From positions 6,699,688-6,763,687 of the forward strand of contig NZ_CP150919.1 in NCBI RefSeq assembly GCF_039909015.1: DNA of 64,000 bases. Reading direction: 5' to 3'. Source of the stretch: Pseudomonas grandcourensis. GTDB lineage: Bacteria > Pseudomonadota > Gammaproteobacteria > Pseudomonadales > Pseudomonadaceae. Numbering within the stretch: position 1 is the stretch's first letter; each line of letters opens with the position of its first letter. The position numbers and the translations under genes were made by a program. A model generated the notes under the pieces. The model ran no database searches. It was not told the origin of the DNA and was given only the letters and a program-made list of their open reading frames with translations. Below are positions 10,933-18,049 of this stretch, in pieces.

Positions 10933-11289
10933 ATGCGGTTGATCGGCTTGTCGTTGCTCCTGGCACTCGTTTCAAGCGAGGCGCTGGCCCAGGCTTGTGT
11001 GGTTCACAGCCAGGGCGAGCGGATTGATGTCCAGGTTTGCCAACAGAACCGCAACATCCCGCCAAAACTCTTCGCCGATGGTTTCTGCCAACCGAACCTG
11101 GCGGGGCAAAAAGTCGAGGTGCAGTATGTCGATCAATGTCCCGGCGGCGCATTTGGTATCTGCAGCAACGCCCAAGTCACCAATATGCCCTACCGACAGG
11201 ATATTCACTATTACGGCGTTGCCACCGACGCGGCGTATTTGCAGCCGTACTGCGAGGCCCAGAGCCAGGGCACCTGGCTCAAGCCTTGA
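10933..11289 (+). CDS. Small secreted cysteine-rich protein, unknown function
   Basis: A 118-residue protein with a clear signal peptide (1-20, LLLALVSSEALA) and a mature part with six cysteines (ACVVH, VQVCQQN, FCQPN, QCPGG, GICSN, PYCEA), suggesting disulfides in the periplasm. An excellent ribosome site (GAGGAGGTGG) precedes the ATG. It sits on the strand opposite to its two flanking COG0523 genes, with gaps of 27 and 15 bases. I do not recognise a named family. Position suggests a link to zinc limitation, but no Zur box precedes it. Confidence 0.7.
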   Translation: MRLIGLSLLLALVSSEALAQACVVHSQGERIDVQVCQQNRNIPPKLFADGFCQPNLAGQKVEVQYVDQCPGGAFGICSNAQVTNMPYRQDIHYYGVATDAAYLQPYCEAQSQGTWLKP

Positions 11290-11304: not shown

Positions 11305-12510
11305 TCAGGCGGCCTCTTCATACCAAGGGCCGAATGGATCAGGCAACAAACCCCAGCCCTCTACGCCAAGCGCCATTTCCTCATCGGTCAGCAGGCATGC
11401 GTCCAGTTCGGCCGTGAGCTGCGTGAAGTCAATGTTCTGGCCGATGAAAACCAGTTCCTGGCGACAGTCCCCGCTGTCGGCGGTCCAGTTTTTCATAATC
11501 CCGGCGGTACTTTCTTCGTCTTGCGGCCATTGGTTTTTCGGTACGAAACGCCACCAGCGCCCGGCAAAACCATAGCGCATCAAACCACCGGCCTGAGACC
11601 AACTGCCGGCGTCCATGTGCTTGCTCGCCAGCCAGAAAAAGCCCTTGGAACGCAGCAGCTTGCCGTTGTCCCAAGGACCGTCGATAAAATTGAAGAATCG
11701 CTGCGGATGGAACGGCCGGCGAGCCCGGTAAGCACTGGAAGCAATGCCGTACTCTTCGGTTTCCGGCACGTGTTCGCCGCGCAGCTCCTGCAACCATCCC
11801 GGTGCCTGGGCAGCCTTTTCGAAGTCAAAACGACCGGTGTTGAGAATCTTGTTCAAGGGGATTTCACCCATCGCCATCGGAATGATTTCCGCCCGGGCGT
11901 TGAGCCGTTCAAGTATGGCGATCAGCTCCTCGCGTTGGTGGCTGCTGATCAAGTCGATCTTGCTGAGCAAAATCACATCGGCGAACTCGACCTGCTCGAT
12001 CAACAGATCGGTAATCGAACGTTCGTCTTCCTCCCCAAGGGTCTCTCCCCGGGAAGCCAGGCTTTCGGCAGCCTGGTAATCGAGCAGGAAGTTCATGCCG
12101 TCGACCACCGTGACCATGGTGTCGAGACGGGCGATGTCATTGAGACTCTGGCCGTTTTCATCGCAGAAGGTGAAGGTTTCCGCCACTGGCAGCGGTTCGG
12201 AAATGCCGGTGGACTCGATCAGCAGATAGTCGAAGCGACCCTCTCTGGCGAGTTGGCTCACCTCCTCCAGCAAGTCTTCACGTAACGTACAGCAAATACA
12301 CCCGTTACTCATCTCAACCAACCGTTCTTCAGCGCGATTTAGGCTGACATCGCGCTGGACTTCGGCGCCATCGACGTTGATTTCGCTCATATCGTTGACG
12401 ATGACTGCAACCCGCAAACCATCACGATTACGTAGTATGTAATTAAGAAGTGTACTTTTTCCGGCGCCAAGAAAGCCGGAGAGAACGGTCACGGGGAGTC
12501 GATTGGACAT
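11305..12510 (-). CDS. zigA: Zur-linked zinc chaperone GTPase, ZigA-like (COG0523)
   Basis: A 401-residue G3E GTPase. Walker A is [12 protein letters not shown] (residues 9-20), followed by [12 protein letters not shown], the metal motif NGCICCTLR and [16 protein letters not shown] long CobW C-terminal domain begins with [11 protein letters not shown]. This matches the zinc-homeostasis branch (ZigA/YeiR/ZagA) of COG0523, which passes zinc to client enzymes when zinc is scarce. Start at 12510 gives GAGG a 9-base spacing; an ATG two codons upstream is possible. A Zur-like palindrome at 12560-12574 lies 50 bases upstream and is shared with the divergent small gene. Confidence 0.9.
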
Positions 12511-12559
12511 CTGCATATTCCTCACAGGGATGCCCGGTCGCTGTGTCGGGCTTACACAA

Positions 12560-12574
12560 TGTTATACTGTAACA
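12560..12574. promoter_or_regulatory. Zur-box-like operator between zigA and a small secreted gene
   Basis: TGTTATACTGTAACA is an imperfect palindrome with perfect outer arms (TGTTA/TAACA), close to the Pseudomonas/E. coli Zur consensus TGTTATANTATAACA. It lies in the divergent promoter region and is well placed to repress both genes when zinc is plentiful. Confidence 0.8.
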
Positions 12575-12652
12575 ACACAAATAAACCATCCCCTCTTGCT
12601 CAGCCGGGCAAAGGACAGGATGCTGAACACCGCTCCCCTCGTGAGAAAGCCC

Positions 12653-13033
12653 ATGCGCAACGCCCTTAAACCTGCATTGATCATGCTTTCCCTGCTGCTT
12701 TTGGCGGCCGAGGCGACGGCCCAGATCCCGAGCCTGGCCAAGTGCACCCGCAGTGCCAACCTGCTGGCCTGCGTGGATGCGGATGGCAATGCCTACAACG
12801 TTAACACCGCCGGCAGCACCCTCTATCTGCGGGGCTTCGAAACGGCCGGAAAACGCTATTGGGCACAGACCAACAGCCGCTACGGTCAGCTGACGTTTTT
12901 CACCGGTATCGCTTCCGATGGCGAGGCCTGGGTCGGTTACAACCGGCGCGTGGGCTGGACCACGATCAATCGGTTTTCCAGTTCCGGCGGCAGCAGCGCC
13001 AGGTTCACCTGCAGCCGGATCGCTGGCTGTTAG
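12653..13033 (+). CDS. Small secreted protein in the Zur cluster, unknown function
   Basis: A 126-residue protein with a signal peptide (1-24, LSLLLLAAEATAQ) and a mature region with four cysteines (KCTR, ACVDADGNAY, FTCSR, AGC), ending in a Gly/Ser-rich tail. The mature part resembles small Pseudomonas periplasmic proteins that lack an assigned role. I place the start at 12653, where the signal peptide begins and GAGA precedes; an in-frame ATG at 12620 with AGGA upstream would add 11 residues. The Zur-like palindrome at 12560 precedes it, so zinc-limited expression is expected. Confidence 0.7.
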   Translation: MRNALKPALIMLSLLLLAAEATAQIPSLAKCTRSANLLACVDADGNAYNVNTAGSTLYLRGFETAGKRYWAQTNSRYGQLTFFTGIASDGEAWVGYNRRVGWTTINRFSSSGGSSARFTCSRIAGC

Positions 13034-13131: not shown

Positions 13132-13148
13132 ATGTTATACTATAACAT
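13132..13148. promoter_or_regulatory. Zur-box operator of the folE2-znuCBA operon
   Basis: ATGTTATACTATAACAT is a 17-base palindrome with perfect 8-base arms and one central base. It matches the Zur consensus TGTTATANTATAACA at every defined position and lies 30 bases before the folE2 start. Confidence 0.92.
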
Positions 13149-13178
13149 GTCAAACCAACTCCCACGATGGACCTGCTC

Positions 13179-14075
13179 ATGAATGCGCTGACTCTGCCGG
13201 ATATCGCCGCGCAGGCCTCACGCCAAGCCCTGCCACTGGAGTGGGTGGGCATGTGCGGCATTGCTCTTCCCGTTTTGTTTGATGGCCAACGACTGAATGC
13301 AAAGGTCGATGCCGGCGTGAGCCTCGACGATGGCAACACGCGCGGCATTCACATGTCACGGCTCTATCTGGCGCTTGAATTGCTGGAGCAGGAAAACCTT
13401 TCACCGGCTTTATTGCGGCGGGTTTTGCAGCGTTTTCTTGAGAGTCATGAAGGGCTATCCAGCAGCGCACACCTAACCATTCATGCCGATTTGTTGCTGA
13501 AAAGGCCGGCGCTGATCAGTCCATTGGCCGGCTGGAAAAGCTATCCGGTCAGCATCGAAGCGCGTTTGAAAAACGCAATGTTCCACGTGGAACTAAAAAT
13601 CGACGTGCCTTATTCCTCAACCTGCCCGTGTTCCGCGGCCCTTTCTCGACAGTTGATTCAGCAGCAGTTCGTCGATGATTTCGCCAACAAGCCACTGCAA
13701 CACGCCGACGTTTTAGCCTGGCTCGGTTCCACGAACGGCATCGTCGCCACACCTCACAGCCAACGCAGCAGTGCAAAGTTGCGCGTACGTCTGGCTGATT
13801 TTCTGGACGAGTTGCCTCTGATCGCCGTCATCAACGACGCTGAAGCCGCACTCGGCACCGCCGTTCAAACAGCGGTAAAACGCGCCGACGAACAGGCCTT
13901 CGCCCTGGCCAATGGTCAGAACCTGATGTTCTGCGAAGACGCCGCACGCCGTTTGAATCTGGCCCTCAAGCGGTCCACAGGCATCAGCGCCTTCCACATT
14001 CGTGTCATCCACGCCGAAAGCCTGCACGCCCACGACGCCGTAGCCGAAAGCCGTTTCAACTGGGAGGCCGCATGA
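13179..14075 (+). CDS. folE2: GTP cyclohydrolase I type B, FolE2
   Basis: A 298-residue GTP cyclohydrolase FolE2 (COG1469). It converts GTP to 7,8-dihydroneopterin triphosphate, the first step of folate and related pteridine synthesis. The type B enzyme is not strictly zinc-dependent and can replace FolE when zinc is scarce. Visible signatures are VGMCGIALPV, RGIHMSRLY, VPYSSTCPCSAALSR (with the conserved metal-site Cys) and NLMFCEDAARRL. The start follows the conserved MNALTLPDIA; an ATG four codons upstream (13167) exists. The stop overlaps znuC by 4 bases (ATGA), which implies translational coupling. A parS site lies inside this gene at 13579. Confidence 0.95.
   Translation: MNALTLPDIAAQASRQALPLEWVGMCGIALPVLFDGQRLNAKVDAGVSLDDGNTRGIHMSRLYLALELLEQENLSPALLRRVLQRFLESHEGLSSSAHLTIHADLLLKRPALISPLAGWKSYPVSIEARLKNAMFHVELKIDVPYSSTCPCSAALSRQLIQQQFVDDFANKPLQHADVLAWLGSTNGIVATPHSQRSSAKLRVRLADFLDELPLIAVINDAEAALGTAVQTAVKRADEQAFALANGQNLMFCEDAARRLNLALKRSTGISAFHIRVIHAESLHAHDAVAESRFNWEAA
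13579..13594. other. parS centromere-like site inside folE2
   Basis: TGTTCCACGTGGAACT matches the bacterial parS consensus TGTTCCACGTGGAACA at 15 of 16 bases, with a perfect 14-base inner palindrome. ParB loads here. parA and parB lie at 54.7-56.4 kb. Confidence 0.9.
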
Positions 14076-14740
14076 TTGCTTGCCACGCTTTGCGCTGGGG
14101 TGCACCGGGGCAGCCACTCACGCCAGCGCTGGACTTCGAACTGTCGAAGGGCAACCTGACTGCCATCATCGGTGCGAACGGCTCCGGGAAAAGCAGCCTG
14201 TTGAAGGTCATCGCCGGCTTGCAAAAACCGTTGGCCGGAAAGGTTCGACTGAGTGTTCCACTCAAGGGGGGTGTGTCGTTCCTGCCCCAGCAACAACACC
14301 TCGACAGACAATTCCCGATCAGCCTTCAGGCATTGGTCGCCGCCGGTTTCTGGGGCAACAAACAGTCACCACAGGTCCGTAGCCAACGACTGAAAACCGT
14401 CCTCGAAAACTGGTGCCTGAATGGCCTGGAAGATCGACCCTTGATGGCCCTCTCCGGCGGCGAATTGCAACGCGCCCTGCTCGCCCGATTGAGCCTGACC
14501 GACGCACCCTTGCTATTGCTCGATGAACCCCACGCGGCCCTCGATGAACTCGGCCAGGCATTGCTCTGGAAGCACATATACGAATGGCACCTCGAGGGCC
14601 GAACACAGGTGGTCGTGTGCCATGACCTCGCCGCTGTCCGCGAGCACATCCCACACACGTTGCTGATCAAAAGCAGTGGATGCGCATTCGGCCCGAGCAC
14701 CGAACTGATCCGCCAACCACCACAAGCGCAGGTGGCCTGA
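14072..14740 (+). CDS. znuC: Zinc ABC transporter ATP-binding protein, ZnuC-like
   Basis: A compact 222-residue ABC ATPase that powers zinc import. Walker A is GANGSGKSSL (residues 30-39), the signature LSGGELQRALLARL and Walker B APLLLLDEPHAALDE follow, and the switch His is in VVCHDL. It overlaps folE2 by 4 bases upstream and znuB by one base downstream (TGATG), so it sits within one operon. Manganese or iron ABC importers look similar; the Zur box, the FolE2 and carbonic anhydrase neighbours argue for zinc. Confidence 0.9.
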   Translation: MIACHALRWGAPGQPLTPALDFELSKGNLTAIIGANGSGKSSLLKVIAGLQKPLAGKVRLSVPLKGGVSFLPQQQHLDRQFPISLQALVAAGFWGNKQSPQVRSQRLKTVLENWCLNGLEDRPLMALSGGELQRALLARLSLTDAPLLLLDEPHAALDELGQALLWKHIYEWHLEGRTQVVVCHDLAAVREHIPHTLLIKSSGCAFGPSTELIRQPPQAQVA

Positions 14741-15606
14741 TGATCGCTGCCGCGCATCTCTGGCAACCGTTCCACGAGTTCGTGTTCATGCGTCGGGCGC
14801 TGCTCGGCGGTTTGCTCCTGGCGTGCAGTACGGCGCCCCTTGGGGTGTTTCTGATCCTCAGGCGCATGAGCCTGATCGGCGATGCCGTCGCCCACGGCAT
14901 CCTTCCCGGTGCGGCTCTAGGTTTCTGGTTTGCCGGGTTGAGCCTCCCGGCGTTGACCATCGGCGGTCTCGGCGCCGGCCTGAGCATGGCCGGCCTCGCC
15001 GCCTGGATTACGCGGCGCACCGGCCTGCGAGAGGACGCCAGCCTCGCGGCGATCTACCCGATTTCCCTGGCCGGTGGCGTGCTGATTCTCGGCATCGCCG
15101 GCAAACGCCTGGACCTGTTGCACCTGCTGTTTGGCTCGGCGCTGGCAGTCGACGGCCCGACCTTGACCGGCATGCTTTGGGTCTCGGGCCTGAGCCTGAT
15201 TGCCATGGCGCTGATCTACAAGCCACTACTGCTCGACACCCTCGACCCGCTTTTTCTGCAAACCGTCAGCCGACTCGGCCCACTGGCCCACGGCGTGTTC
15301 CTGACGCTGGTGGTGTTGAATCTGGTCATCGGTTTCCAGGCGATCGGCGCGTTGATGGTGGTCGGCCTGATGATGCTGCCTGCCGCTGCTGCGCGTTTCT
15401 GGAGTCGTCGCCTGCCGGTGCTGATCGTCGTCGCGGCGTTGCTCGGCAGCCTCTCGGTGTGGCTCGGTTTACTGATCTCGTTCTATTACTCGCTACCCAG
15501 TGGCCCGGCAATCGTGCTGGTGGCCGGCGGAGGGTATCTGTTGTCCGTGGTGTTCGGGCCGGTGCACGGCTTGCTGCGCCGCCCGCCTTTGCTCACATCC
15601 CAATGA
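14740..15606 (+). CDS. znuB: Zinc ABC transporter permease, ZnuB-like
   Basis: A 288-residue ABC-3 family permease with about eight membrane segments. The coupling region is visible in RRMSLIGDAVAHGILPGAALGFW near residue 45 onward, and the conserved FQAIGALMVVGLMMLPAAAARFWSRR lies in the C-terminal half. It carries zinc across the inner membrane with the ZnuC ATPase and the ZnuA-like binding protein. Start is the ATG overlapping the znuC stop. Twelve bases separate it from znuA. Confidence 0.92.
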   Translation: MIAAAHLWQPFHEFVFMRRALLGGLLLACSTAPLGVFLILRRMSLIGDAVAHGILPGAALGFWFAGLSLPALTIGGLGAGLSMAGLAAWITRRTGLREDASLAAIYPISLAGGVLILGIAGKRLDLLHLLFGSALAVDGPTLTGMLWVSGLSLIAMALIYKPLLLDTLDPLFLQTVSRLGPLAHGVFLTLVVLNLVIGFQAIGALMVVGLMMLPAAAARFWSRRLPVLIVVAALLGSLSVWLGLLISFYYSLPSGPAIVLVAGGGYLLSVVFGPVHGLLRRPPLLTSQ

Positions 15607-15617
15607 GGTGTTACCCG

Positions 15618-16493
15618 ATGCGCGCTTTACTCGTGCTGTTCAGCTTGATGGTGTCGATGTCGCTGTCTGCCGCCGAAAAACTTCAGGTGGTCACCAGCTT
15701 CAGCATCCTTGCCGACATGACCCGGCAGGTTGGCAAAGATCATATCCAGATCACCAACATGGTCGGCCCGGACGCGGATGCACATACCTACGAGCCGACA
15801 CCGGACGACGCCAAAGCGCTGCTCAAGGCCAGGCTCATCATCAAGAACGGCCTGGGTTTCGAGCCCTGGCTGGATCGACTGGTGACGAGCACCGAGACCC
15901 GGGCGCAGGTCATCAGCGCGAGTCGCGGTGTCATACCGCGCAGCCTGGATGAAGACGGCGAAACCGTTCCCGACCCGCACGCCTGGCATAACCTGGCGAA
16001 CACCGAGCTGTACATCGCCAATATCACCAAGGCGCTGATCACCGCCGACCCGGCAAACACCGCCGACTATGAGCGCAACAGCCAGGCGTATCTGAAACAG
16101 GTCTATGCCCTGCTCGCCGAAGCCAAGGCCAAACTCGGTTCACTGTCACCGGGCAACCGCAAGATCGTGACCTCCCACGATGCCTTCGGTTATCTCGGCC
16201 AGGCCTACGGCATCGAGTTCATGGCGCCTCAAGGCCTGTCCACCGAGCGCGAACCTTCAGCCGCCGAAGTGGCCGCACTGATCACCCAGATTCGTCAGGC
16301 CAAGGTCAAGGCGGTGTTCATGGAAAACATCAAGGACGCCCGCCTGCTCAAGCAGATCGCCGATGAAAGCGATGCGCAGATCGGCGGCACGCTGTACTCC
16401 GACGCCTTGGCGGCGAGCGGTCCGGCCAGCACCTTCACCGGCTTGTTCGAGTACAACCTCAACACCCTGTACAACGCGTTGAGCAAGCCATGA
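15618..16493 (+). CDS. znuA: Zinc ABC transporter substrate-binding protein, ZnuA-like
   Basis: A 291-residue cluster A-I periplasmic metal-binding protein with a signal peptide (1-18, MVSMSLSA). Probable metal ligands are His56 (DADAHTYEP), the His in DPHAWHN, the His in TSHDAFGYL and the Asp in LYSDALA, the usual three-His-plus-acid set. It lacks the long His-rich loop found in E. coli ZnuA. A good ribosome site (GAGGTG, 8 bases) supports the start at 15618. The stop overlaps the carbonic anhydrase gene (ATGA). A manganese-binding homologue would look much alike; the operon context favours zinc. Confidence 0.9.
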   Translation: MRALLVLFSLMVSMSLSAAEKLQVVTSFSILADMTRQVGKDHIQITNMVGPDADAHTYEPTPDDAKALLKARLIIKNGLGFEPWLDRLVTSTETRAQVISASRGVIPRSLDEDGETVPDPHAWHNLANTELYIANITKALITADPANTADYERNSQAYLKQVYALLAEAKAKLGSLSPGNRKIVTSHDAFGYLGQAYGIEFMAPQGLSTEREPSAAEVAALITQIRQAKVKAVFMENIKDARLLKQIADESDAQIGGTLYSDALAASGPASTFTGLFEYNLNTLYNALSKP

Positions 16494-17050
16494 TCCGCAA
16501 GAACCCTTCCGGAGATTTGCCGCGGATTGCGGAGTCGGCCTACGTCGACAAGACGGCGATCATCTGCGGCAAAGTGGTGATCGGTGAGAACGTGTTCGTC
16601 GGCCCCTATGCCGTGATCCGCGCTGACGAAGTCGATGACTCGGGCGACATGCAGCCGATCACCATCGGCGCCAACTCGAACATCCAGGACGGTGTGGTCA
16701 TCCACTCCAAATCCGGTGCGGCGGTGACCATTGGCGAGTTCAGTTCGATCGCCCACCGCTCGATCGTGCATGGCCCCTGCACCGTGGGCAACCGAGTGTT
16801 CATCGGCTTCAACAGCGTGCTGTTCAACTGTGTGGTCGGTGACGGTTGCGTGGTTCGGCACAACTCGGTGGTCGACGGTCGTGACCTGCCTGAGGCCTTC
16901 TACGTGCCCTCCACCACGCGGATCGGCCCCAACACCGACCTCTCGCAATACCCGCCGGTGAGCGTCAGTGCCTCGGAGTTCTCCGAAGACGTAGCGCGCA
17001 CCAACGTCGACCTGGTGCGCGGCTACAAAGCCCTGCAAAACGAGTTCTGA
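16490..17050 (+). CDS. Gamma-class carbonic anhydrase family protein
   Basis: A 186-residue left-handed beta-helix protein with hexapeptide repeats ([IV]GENVF, ITIGANSNI, VTIGEFSSI, CTVGNRVFIG). The likely metal ligands are in VVIHSK and IAHRSIVHG (His-x4-His), as in the gamma-carbonic anhydrase/YrdA family. Members can use iron or zinc. A Zur-linked copy is often read as a replacement for zinc-rich carbonic anhydrases when zinc is scarce, which is inference here. It overlaps znuA by 4 bases and ends the folE2-znuCBA run; the next gene begins 120 bases later. Confidence 0.88.
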   Translation: MIRKNPSGDLPRIAESAYVDKTAIICGKVVIGENVFVGPYAVIRADEVDDSGDMQPITIGANSNIQDGVVIHSKSGAAVTIGEFSSIAHRSIVHGPCTVGNRVFIGFNSVLFNCVVGDGCVVRHNSVVDGRDLPEAFYVPSTTRIGPNTDLSQYPPVSVSASEFSEDVARTNVDLVRGYKALQNEF

Positions 17051-17073
17051 CGCGGGTGGCCAAAAACAGCCAT

Positions 17074-17099
17074 CGTGTCAGGACAAATTGCCTGGCACG
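17074..17099 (+). promoter_or_regulatory. Hairpin in the leader of the ThrRS-like gene
   Basis: CGTGTCAGG and CCTGGCACG can form a 9-bp stem with one G-U pair and an 8-base loop. No T-run follows, so it is not a standard terminator. It may be an attenuator, a processing site, or chance. Confidence 0.4.
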
Positions 17100-17170
17100 A
17101 CAAACGTCTTAATGTTTGCCCCTACGGTTTATGCGATAAAGCTCGTTAGAAGCACGTGAGTACGCCGACC

Positions 17171-18049
17171 ATGATCCAGATCACCCTGCCCGATGGTTCA
17201 TTGCGTGAATACGACCAGCCACTGTCCGTGCACGAGGTGGCCGCCAGCATCGGCGCCGAACTGGCCAGCGCGGCCGTAGCGGGAAGGGTCGACGGTGTAC
17301 TGGTGGACTGCGAATACCTGATCGAAGCGGATGCCCGGGTCAGCATTGTCACCCCCCGGGAGCCGGACGGCCTGGAGATCCTGCGCCGCTCCTGTGCATT
17401 GATGCTGGCCATGGCGGTCAAGCAACTCCACCCTCATGCGCAAATGCGTGCGGGAAAGGAGTTGGGTGACGGTTTCTTTTACGAGTTTACAGTCGAGCAA
17501 CCGCTGACCCCGGCAGACCTGCCCCTCATCGAAGCGCGCATGCAGTCACTGGCCGCAACCAATCACTCGATCCGTCGTCGGCCGGCGCGCGAAGCAGTGC
17601 CGCTGTACCGTCTGGGGGACACCGAATACCAGAGCCACGGACCGCACGTCCCCACCACCAAAGTCTTGCAGGCGTTTGCCCTCGATCACATCAGCGGCAC
17701 GTTACAGCAACGGATCTACGGCACTTGCTGGTCCAGCCATCAGGAGCTGCAACACTGGCGTGTTCCACCCCACGTGGTTGTCGTGAGCATGGATGACCGC
17801 CAGGCGACTTATGCACAAGCGGTAACCGAATCCTTGCGCCAAAAAGGCGTGCGGGCCAAGGCCGACCTGCGAAACGAAAAAGTTCGCTACAAGATTCGTC
17901 AGCATAGCCAGAGCGTGCCGTACCTGGTCGTGGTTGGCGAAAAGGAAAAGGCCGGGGGGTTCGTCAGTGTGCGCAGTCGCACGGGGGAGGATTTTGGCCG
18001 GATGGCCGTCGAGGCGGCGTGTGAGTGGTTGAGTCGGCCGGGGATCTAG
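17171..18049 (+). CDS. Core-less threonyl-tRNA synthetase paralogue
   Basis: A 292-residue relative of ThrRS (normally ~640). In order: a TGS domain (1-61, MIQITLPDGS), an N2 editing-like domain (63-185, ending LQQRIYGTCW) and, at once, the anticodon-binding domain (197-292: PPHVVVVSMDD, KADLRNEKVRYKIRQH, VPYLVVVGEKE). The whole aminoacylation core with motifs 1-3 and its zinc site is absent. In N2 the ligands of the editing pocket are changed: the AHLLGHA helix reads ALMLAMA (residues 76-82), and CRGPH reads SHGPH (155-159), so only the last His remains. It cannot charge tRNA. Binding tRNA-Thr or thrS mRNA is possible but unproven. Start at the ATG gives the canonical N-terminus; GTG at 17156 is an alternative. 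Confidence 0.85.
   Translation: MIQITLPDGSLREYDQPLSVHEVAASIGAELASAAVAGRVDGVLVDCEYLIEADARVSIVTPREPDGLEILRRSCALMLAMAVKQLHPHAQMRAGKELGDGFFYEFTVEQPLTPADLPLIEARMQSLAATNHSIRRRPAREAVPLYRLGDTEYQSHGPHVPTTKVLQAFALDHISGTLQQRIYGTCWSSHQELQHWRVPPHVVVVSMDDRQATYAQAVTESLRQKGVRAKADLRNEKVRYKIRQHSQSVPYLVVVGEKEKAGGFVSVRSRTGEDFGRMAVEAACEWLSRPGI

Follow-up and report, generated by a model that had tools for sequence, protein, structure and literature searches.

A core-less threonyl-tRNA synthetase paralogue beside a putative Zur operon in Pseudomonas, and its possible role as an RNA binder

Introduction

Paralogues of threonyl-tRNA synthetase (ThrRS) in Zur regulons were listed in a survey that, in the part drawn on here, describes their zinc ligands as conserved and suggests that they serve as replacements for the enzyme or as additional copies of it (Haas et al., 2009, PMC2770081). 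In Anabaena, lack of zinc makes ThrRS T1 come apart into inactive monomers, and its paralogue T2, under Zur control, is induced (PMC4787780); a review of Zur regulons gives thrS2 for Anabaena and mentions no thrS where, in the sections consulted, it deals with P. protegens and P. aeruginosa (PMC6103462). The subject of this report is a gene of another build, found in a 64,000-nt stretch of Pseudomonas grandcourensis DNA (contig NZ_CP150919.1, positions 6,699,688–6,763,687; hereafter the window): it encodes the TGS domain, the N2 (editing-type) domain and the anticodon-binding domain (ABD) of ThrRS, with no catalytic core between them, and it lies beside a putative zinc-limitation operon. The conserved zinc ligands reported for Zur-linked paralogues do not fit this form (PMC2770081). 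Anabaena T2 offers a parallel, being a ThrRS paralogue under Zur control whose editing domain is impaired and which is induced at low zinc, but T2, in contrast to the core-less Pseudomonas form, charges tRNA, dimerises and keeps HxxxH and DxCRGPH (PMC4787780).

An earlier reading of the window, made from its sequence only, knew of no description of a core-less ThrRS; that claim does not hold, since archaeal ThrRS-ed is a precedent for a core-less ThrRS derivative (PMC9976931). ThrRS-ed is DTD-like and active in editing, whereas the Pseudomonas protein carries a bacterial TGS-N2 part with a dead site (PMC7373986). The model NF011500 (Ser-tRNA(Thr) hydrolase) matches the Pseudomonas protein in the ABD only, at 26 bits against a cut-off of 362. 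By fold, a further core-less ThrRS derivative may be present in the mitoribosome as chain 7/Lm/c, which we take to be mL39 (MRPL39), a structural ribosomal protein; unlike the Pseudomonas protein, it shows no match past about residue 235 and no counterpart of the ABD was seen. No description of a bacterial core-less ThrRS lacking both active sites was found in the open-licence literature, a scope that makes this absence weak.

Models for repression through anticodon mimics in mRNA come from two synthetases. In E. coli, ThrRS binds two operator hairpins that resemble the anticodon loop of tRNA-Thr and keeps the 30S subunit off thrS (PMC11088916), and in yeast a fusion of the HisRS ABD to GFP repressed HisRS synthesis via an anticodon mimic (PMC6542539). 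As described in the parts of these papers cited here, repression is exerted by the active enzyme in one case and by an engineered fragment in the other; neither is a core-less paralogue occurring in nature.

Loss of both active sites

Both active sites of ThrRS, catalytic and editing, are gone from the core-less protein. The catalytic core and its three zinc ligands (Cys/His/His) are missing from all 55 core-less proteins collected from the genus, and the protein, judged from the alignment, is without aminoacylating ability, in agreement with the sequence-only reading, which had held tRNA charging impossible. That reading had also noted replaced editing-site ligands in the window's protein, and the same is seen throughout the set: the first editing His (equivalent to H73) is Leu or Ser in 55/55, the second (equivalent to H77) is Met, Val or Leu in 55/55, and the editing Cys (equivalent to C182) is replaced in 51/55. 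The last His of the editing site is retained in 52 of the 55; as a set, the proteins lack the combination of HxxxH and DxCRGPH that marks the N2 editing site. The columns D179, R182 and K196 (own numbering) are lost in more than 90% of them. Residue 73 of the core-less protein is Arg in 55/55 and His in all 16 full-length second ThrRS (ThrRS2) proteins encoded in the same gene neighbourhood.

The rest of the protein is recognisably ThrRS. TGS, N2 and ABD are all present according to Pfam, AlphaFold and fold search (N2 by fold, since its Pfam model reaches only E 0.1), and alignment, Pfam and fold together confirm the earlier description of a TGS-N2-ABD paralogue in an intact 292-codon frame beside a zinc operon. 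The score against TIGR00418 (threonyl-tRNA synthetase) is 102.8 bits, below the cut-off of 383.65. The three domains are predicted to fold confidently: the AlphaFold model reached a predicted local distance difference test score (pLDDT) of 93.8 with an alignment of 65 rows (64.8 with 9 rows). The linker between N2 and ABD is about 10 residues long, and the whole of 1qf6 superposes on the model only at 17.9 Å.

Conservation was measured on columns invariant (95%) in 66 housekeeping-type ThrRS proteins together with the own thrS product. Mean retention of these columns in the core-less set is 91% in TGS (21 columns) and 65% in N2 (52 columns), where the losses take in editing-site columns. In the ABD, retention is at least 95% at every one of the columns equivalent, in own numbering, to D571, R573, E575, K576, K580, R582, H584, E599 and R608, and the columns below 95% include E583, R610 and D597, the last mostly replaced by Glu in the rows printed. 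The E. coli residues E600, R609, K577 and N575 are presumably, under that numbering, anticodon readers; the equivalents of E600 and R609 are retained in 55/55 and that of K577 in 52/55.

Distribution and selection

The core-less form occurs in 55 of 398 Pseudomonas genomes, always in an open frame of 272–324 amino acids (aa) from the chosen start. Fifty-four have a single match spanning the query (frames of 293–373 codons), and one (G108) has two pieces in one 329-codon frame. One of the carriers, G277, is marked as of the window's own species. With 55 genomes sharing it, the layout, which the earlier reading had wished to see sought across Pseudomonas, is not a deletion confined to one strain. 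Thirty-six further genomes of the genus show four match pieces, the pattern expected of a second full-length ThrRS, and 22 of these genes, encoding 629–670 aa, were extracted; by match counts no genome has both forms. Nine genomes (G025, G122, G134, G168, G215, G309, G323, G368 and G387) have four match pieces and no strong ThrRS2-like match, and may hold another, more distant second ThrRS.

Outside the genus, no core-less form was seen in samples of 369 genomes of the class and 293 of the order at E ≤ 1e-44. Besides the own genome, the only match in the class was G739, with a 652-aa frame, and the only one in the order was G083, a member of the genus. Among the best 80 loci of a named collection, nine are core-less, all titled Pseudomonas and some overlapping the 55 (the nine include the frame-broken L101 described below), and the remaining 71 match the query over about residues 1–198 only.

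The core-less gene almost certainly encodes a conserved functional protein. The ratio of nonsynonymous to synonymous substitution rates (dN/dS), obtained by Nei-Gojobori counting for the 117 of 1485 pairs (not independent of one another) with dS of 0.05–0.8, has a median of 0.13 and a 10–90% range of 0.09–0.22; a value near 1, named in advance as the mark of a decaying remnant, is thus not seen. Purifying selection acts on each domain (medians of 0.09 for TGS, 0.15 for N2 and 0.12 for ABD, where the 90% point is 0.32). Between the window and L004 the ratio is 0.064, and against ten near relatives it is 0.06–0.13. For full-length ThrRS2 the median, from pairs within the same dS limits only, is 0.26, a figure not used for comparison. 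All 55 core-less matches in the genus stand in one open frame; neither broken frames nor a dN/dS near 1, as expected of a pseudogene, characterise them. A frame-broken copy, in two pieces in different frames, is found elsewhere, in Pseudomonas sp. ANT_J12 (L101, 7001–7871).

Origin from a full-length second ThrRS

In a tree built from the shared columns of 78 rows, a short branch (length 0.013, support 95/94) separates the 55 core-less proteins from the full-length second ThrRS proteins and the own thrS, ThrRS2 being the nearest group. The core-less proteins have in common the deletion point (cut further in a 272-aa group), Arg73 and, in the rows printed, the absence of the YWRGD segment. The genomic setting agrees. 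DUF3617-cls-cfa lies downstream of the core-less gene in each of 46 rows (taken from 37 of the 55 genomes and from nine named loci, some from the same strain), and 16 of 22 full-length ThrRS2 rows have DUF3617-cls-cfa downstream and a gamma-carbonic-anhydrase-like gene (gamma-CA) upstream, most of these 16 with folE2 and zinc-transport genes farther upstream. These comparisons indicate that the core-less gene descends from a second ThrRS that stood here in full length, and since both occupy one site, loss of the core most likely happened there. The sequence-only reading had taken as a sign of decay a full-length gene there in close relatives, with the deletion in this strain only; full-length genes do occupy the site in the 16 rows, but in other lineages.

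Core and all three zinc ligands are present in the 16 syntenic ThrRS2 proteins (L058–L073), and in their editing site only the second His is changed, to Met in 16/16. They may be editing-impaired, and since HxxxM is already present in all of them, erosion of editing seems to predate the loss of the core. Pseudomonas ThrRS2 shares with the core-less form its site, its neighbours and the step from HxxxH to HxxxM, whereas the core-less form has lost, in addition to core and zinc ligands, the remainder of the editing site.

Four 272-aa proteins (L053–L056) form a core-less subgroup whose N2 deletion and junction differ from the rest. The best tree and the shared deletions favour a single origin that includes them; an alternative tree placing the four with a ThrRS2 subgroup was not rejected (p-AU 0.108), so two losses of the core are possible. 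The 324-aa protein of G108 (L057, 6001–6972) lacks the core, still has the long N2 insert, and judging from its sequence is likely an early stage in the deletion series.

Zur box and putative operon

The core-less gene very probably belongs to a Zur operon that begins with folE2. An exact copy of TGTTATANNATAACA, which we take to be the Zur consensus, stands ahead of the operon. The window has six matches to it at up to three mismatches on both strands, against 2.2 expected, a count reached in 4 of 100 shuffles. In 45/46 core-less and 18/22 full-length rows, a box with at most two mismatches stands no more than 300 nt from the folE2 match, and in none of 68 rows does such a box lie within 400 nt before the ThrRS-like gene itself. 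No terminator- or sigma-70-like site was found in the 120-nt gap between the gamma-CA gene and the core-less gene; given this gap and the box at folE2, the core-less gene most likely closes the operon. About half of the core-less rows have the end of the nearest upstream frame 11–40 nt before the core-less gene; in the others it lies farther away. From this arrangement we infer co-transcription with folE2-znuCBA-gamma-CA and induction at low zinc.

Anticodon-arm look-alikes in the thrS leader

The leader of the housekeeping thrS of the same genome (L173; G000:C1:4548580-4548672, minus strand) lies outside the window. It has a 21-nt hairpin with UUGGUAG, and thus GGU, directly before the Shine-Dalgarno sequence, and a second hairpin farther upstream with UGU at the place of the anticodon. 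The sequence ACCYTTGGTARGGGT has exactly two copies in the 6.76-Mb genome, one in the thrS leader and one in a tRNA-Thr(GGT) gene. A two-hairpin pattern, drawn up from 17 leaders with GGU and UGU fixed in it, was found in 162 of 199 genomes of the genus (none for a reversed-pattern control) and in every one of the 55 genomes with a core-less gene (25/25 and 30/30); the association of the two in a Fisher test (p 0.005) suffers from confounding by kinship and is left aside. Both hairpin sequences are present in 20/20 leaders fetched from beside thrS, and the minimum-energy fold has the first stem in 19 of them. None of three thrS leaders matched an Rfam family at E ≤ 1. This pattern suggests that the two look-alikes of the tRNA-Thr anticodon arm form a putative thrS operator in Pseudomonas, one that resembles the operator described for E. 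coli in its two anticodon-loop-like hairpins (PMC11088916).

Proposed function and alternatives

The core-less copy cannot be a spare enzyme, because both active sites are lost and it is nevertheless kept under selection; the best explanation is that it binds RNA. Plausible natural ligands are the thrS leader and tRNA-Thr. Both had been named by the sequence-only reading, and the retained ABD residues and the leader look-alikes bear that part out, while binding itself is something we infer. That the protein binds the shape of the tRNA-Thr anticodon arm appears somewhat more probable than that it does not. In the mechanism that we put forward, zinc shortage would cause Zur to release the operon and the core-less protein to be made; its ABD would recognise the anticodon-arm shape in the GGU and UGU hairpins of the thrS leader and also in tRNA-Thr. 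The bulky TGS-N2 part of the core-less protein would hinder the ribosome, in the way that E. coli ThrRS does with its N-terminal domains, so that synthesis of the zinc-requiring ThrRS would be held down and futile derepression of thrS by uncharged tRNA-Thr prevented while new ThrRS cannot be metallated. This full mechanism, in which a Zur-induced core-less ThrRS represses thrS translation in zinc shortage, is offered tentatively, and that the protein is a dedicated riboregulator, which binds the mimics of the thrS leader (and tRNA-Thr) and sets ThrRS synthesis by zinc supply, is possible but rather doubtful. If true, it would be a natural conversion of enzyme to repressor through excision of the core, within a metal-starvation regulon; the core-less copy would thus offer a testable route from enzyme to RNA-binding regulator and link zinc supply to threonine decoding. 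The comparison has also brought to light the conserved two-hairpin pattern of the Pseudomonas thrS leader.

Several results weigh against regulation of thrS by the core-less protein. The equivalent of N575 is variable (retained in 37/55), and mean retention of the 31 invariant ABD columns is only 76%. The gene is absent from 343 of the 398 genomes, and it is the fastest-changing gene of its neighbourhood, with a median identity to the window of 73% against 82–95% for the neighbours (37 loci, not all neighbours being found at each). Of 174 genomes that lack the core-less gene, 137 have the two-hairpin pattern too, which points to autoregulation by ThrRS and is no proof of a link. The second hairpin is part of the minimum-energy fold in only 13/20 leaders, and the first gains two extra pairs there, with a GGU triloop at -9.5 kcal/mol against -8.5 kcal/mol for the 7-nt loop; given this preference, the likeness to an anticodon arm is a reading of sequence and position, and the folding check slightly lowered our confidence both in anticodon-arm binding and in the full mechanism. 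Finally, the dimerising catalytic domain is absent, and bivalent operator binding as in E. coli would need another way.

The same ABD conservation that speaks for leader binding would serve a holder or decoy that binds tRNA-Thr itself, not mainly mRNA, and lowers or buffers the free pool in zinc starvation, either slowing translation or protecting tRNA-Thr while zinc-starved ThrRS cannot charge it. The anticodon arm of tRNA-Thr(GGT) and the thrS hairpin share one 15-nt pattern, so that any operator binder should also meet tRNA-Thr; with an N2-ABD link of about 10 residues, however, acceptor arm and anticodon of one tRNA could hardly be gripped together, and this explanation is less than likely. 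Docking on the ribosome is known for the TGS domain of RelA and for a ThrRS-like protein of mammalian mitoribosomes, and the TGS-N2 part could dock likewise, modulating zinc-stress translation alongside Zur-controlled swaps of ribosomal proteins. We regard such a ribosome-associated factor as unlikely, since the mitoribosomal match ends near residue 235 and leaves the conserved ABD unexplained, and a common fold shows no function. An earlier suggestion, a partner subunit in a mixed complex with housekeeping ThrRS, finds its model in Anabaena, where Zur-controlled, editing-impaired T2 heterodimerises with apo-T1 (PMC4787780), and draws support from the descent of the Pseudomonas gene from a ThrRS2 behind a Zur box and from the ABD, which a description of E. 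coli ThrRS counts as belonging to the dimeric core (PMC11088916). It has become improbable because all 55 proteins lack the catalytic domain, which is the chief part of the dimer.

Slow decay of a ThrRS2 without present function would account for the patchy distribution, the fast change relative to the neighbours, the frame-broken copy L101 and the further deletions in N2. It sits poorly with 55 of 55 open frames, the low median dN/dS and the fixation of Arg73 in every core-less protein, and we give it little credence. A trans-editing factor that clears Ser-tRNA-Thr would resemble archaeal ThrRS-ed in its plan of an editing-type domain and an ABD without a core, but the loss of the H73, H77 and C182 equivalents and of the D179, R182 and K196 columns, in the proportions given above, makes it highly improbable.

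Features of the window

Table 1. Coordinates (window numbering) of the core-less ThrRS gene, its domains and the neighbouring zinc-related features.
Feature	Position	Strand	Basis
Core-less ThrRS paralogue, 292 codons + stop	17171..18049	+	Intact frame
TGS domain, aa 1-61	17171..17353	+	Pfam TGS 2-61; fold match 1tje
Shortened N2 (editing-type) domain, aa 63-188, editing site lost	17357..17734	+	Alignment and fold
R73 codon	17387..17389	+	Residue alignment
L77..M81, once HxxxH editing ligands	17399..17413	+	Alignment
Internal N2 deletion, about 26 residues, after aa 138	17585	+	Gapped alignment, approximate
S155..H159, once CRGPH motif: Cys lost, His kept	17633..17647	+	Alignment
9-residue deletion taking out YWRGD segment, after aa 177	17702	+	Approximate
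Core-deletion junction, about aa 187-199: N2 end fused to ABD start	17729..17767	+	Alignment
ABD, aa 197-292	17759..18046	+	
Exact match to Zur-box consensus, upstream of folE2	13133..13147	.	TGTTATANNATAACA, taken as the consensus
Zur-box-like site, 1 mismatch, upstream of zigA	12560..12574	.	Same consensus
zigA, zinc metallochaperone GTPase	11305..12525	-	NF038288, 681.2 bits, cut-off 600
folE2 (GTP cyclohydrolase FolE2), first in putative operon	13167..14075	+	NCBIfam NF010200, 326.4 bits, cut-off 215
Zinc ABC transporter ATPase, AztA/ZnuC-like	14072..14740	+	Under family cut-offs
Zinc ABC transporter permease, AztB/ZnuB-like	14680..15606	+	Under family cut-offs
ZnuA-like zinc-binding protein	15618..16493	+	Named by position and sequence look, no family scan
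Hexapeptide protein, gamma-carbonic-anhydrase-like	16490..17050	+	Pfam Hexapep 73.3 bits; carbonic-anhydrase models under cut-offs

Two small proteins without a significant Pfam match are encoded near Zur-box-like sites, at 10933-11289 and 12503-13033. In L057, a dihydroorotase-like frame (pyrC2 by look, unscanned) stands between the gamma-CA gene and the ThrRS-like gene; at the corresponding place in the window (17051-17170) this gene is absent and the 120-nt gap remains.
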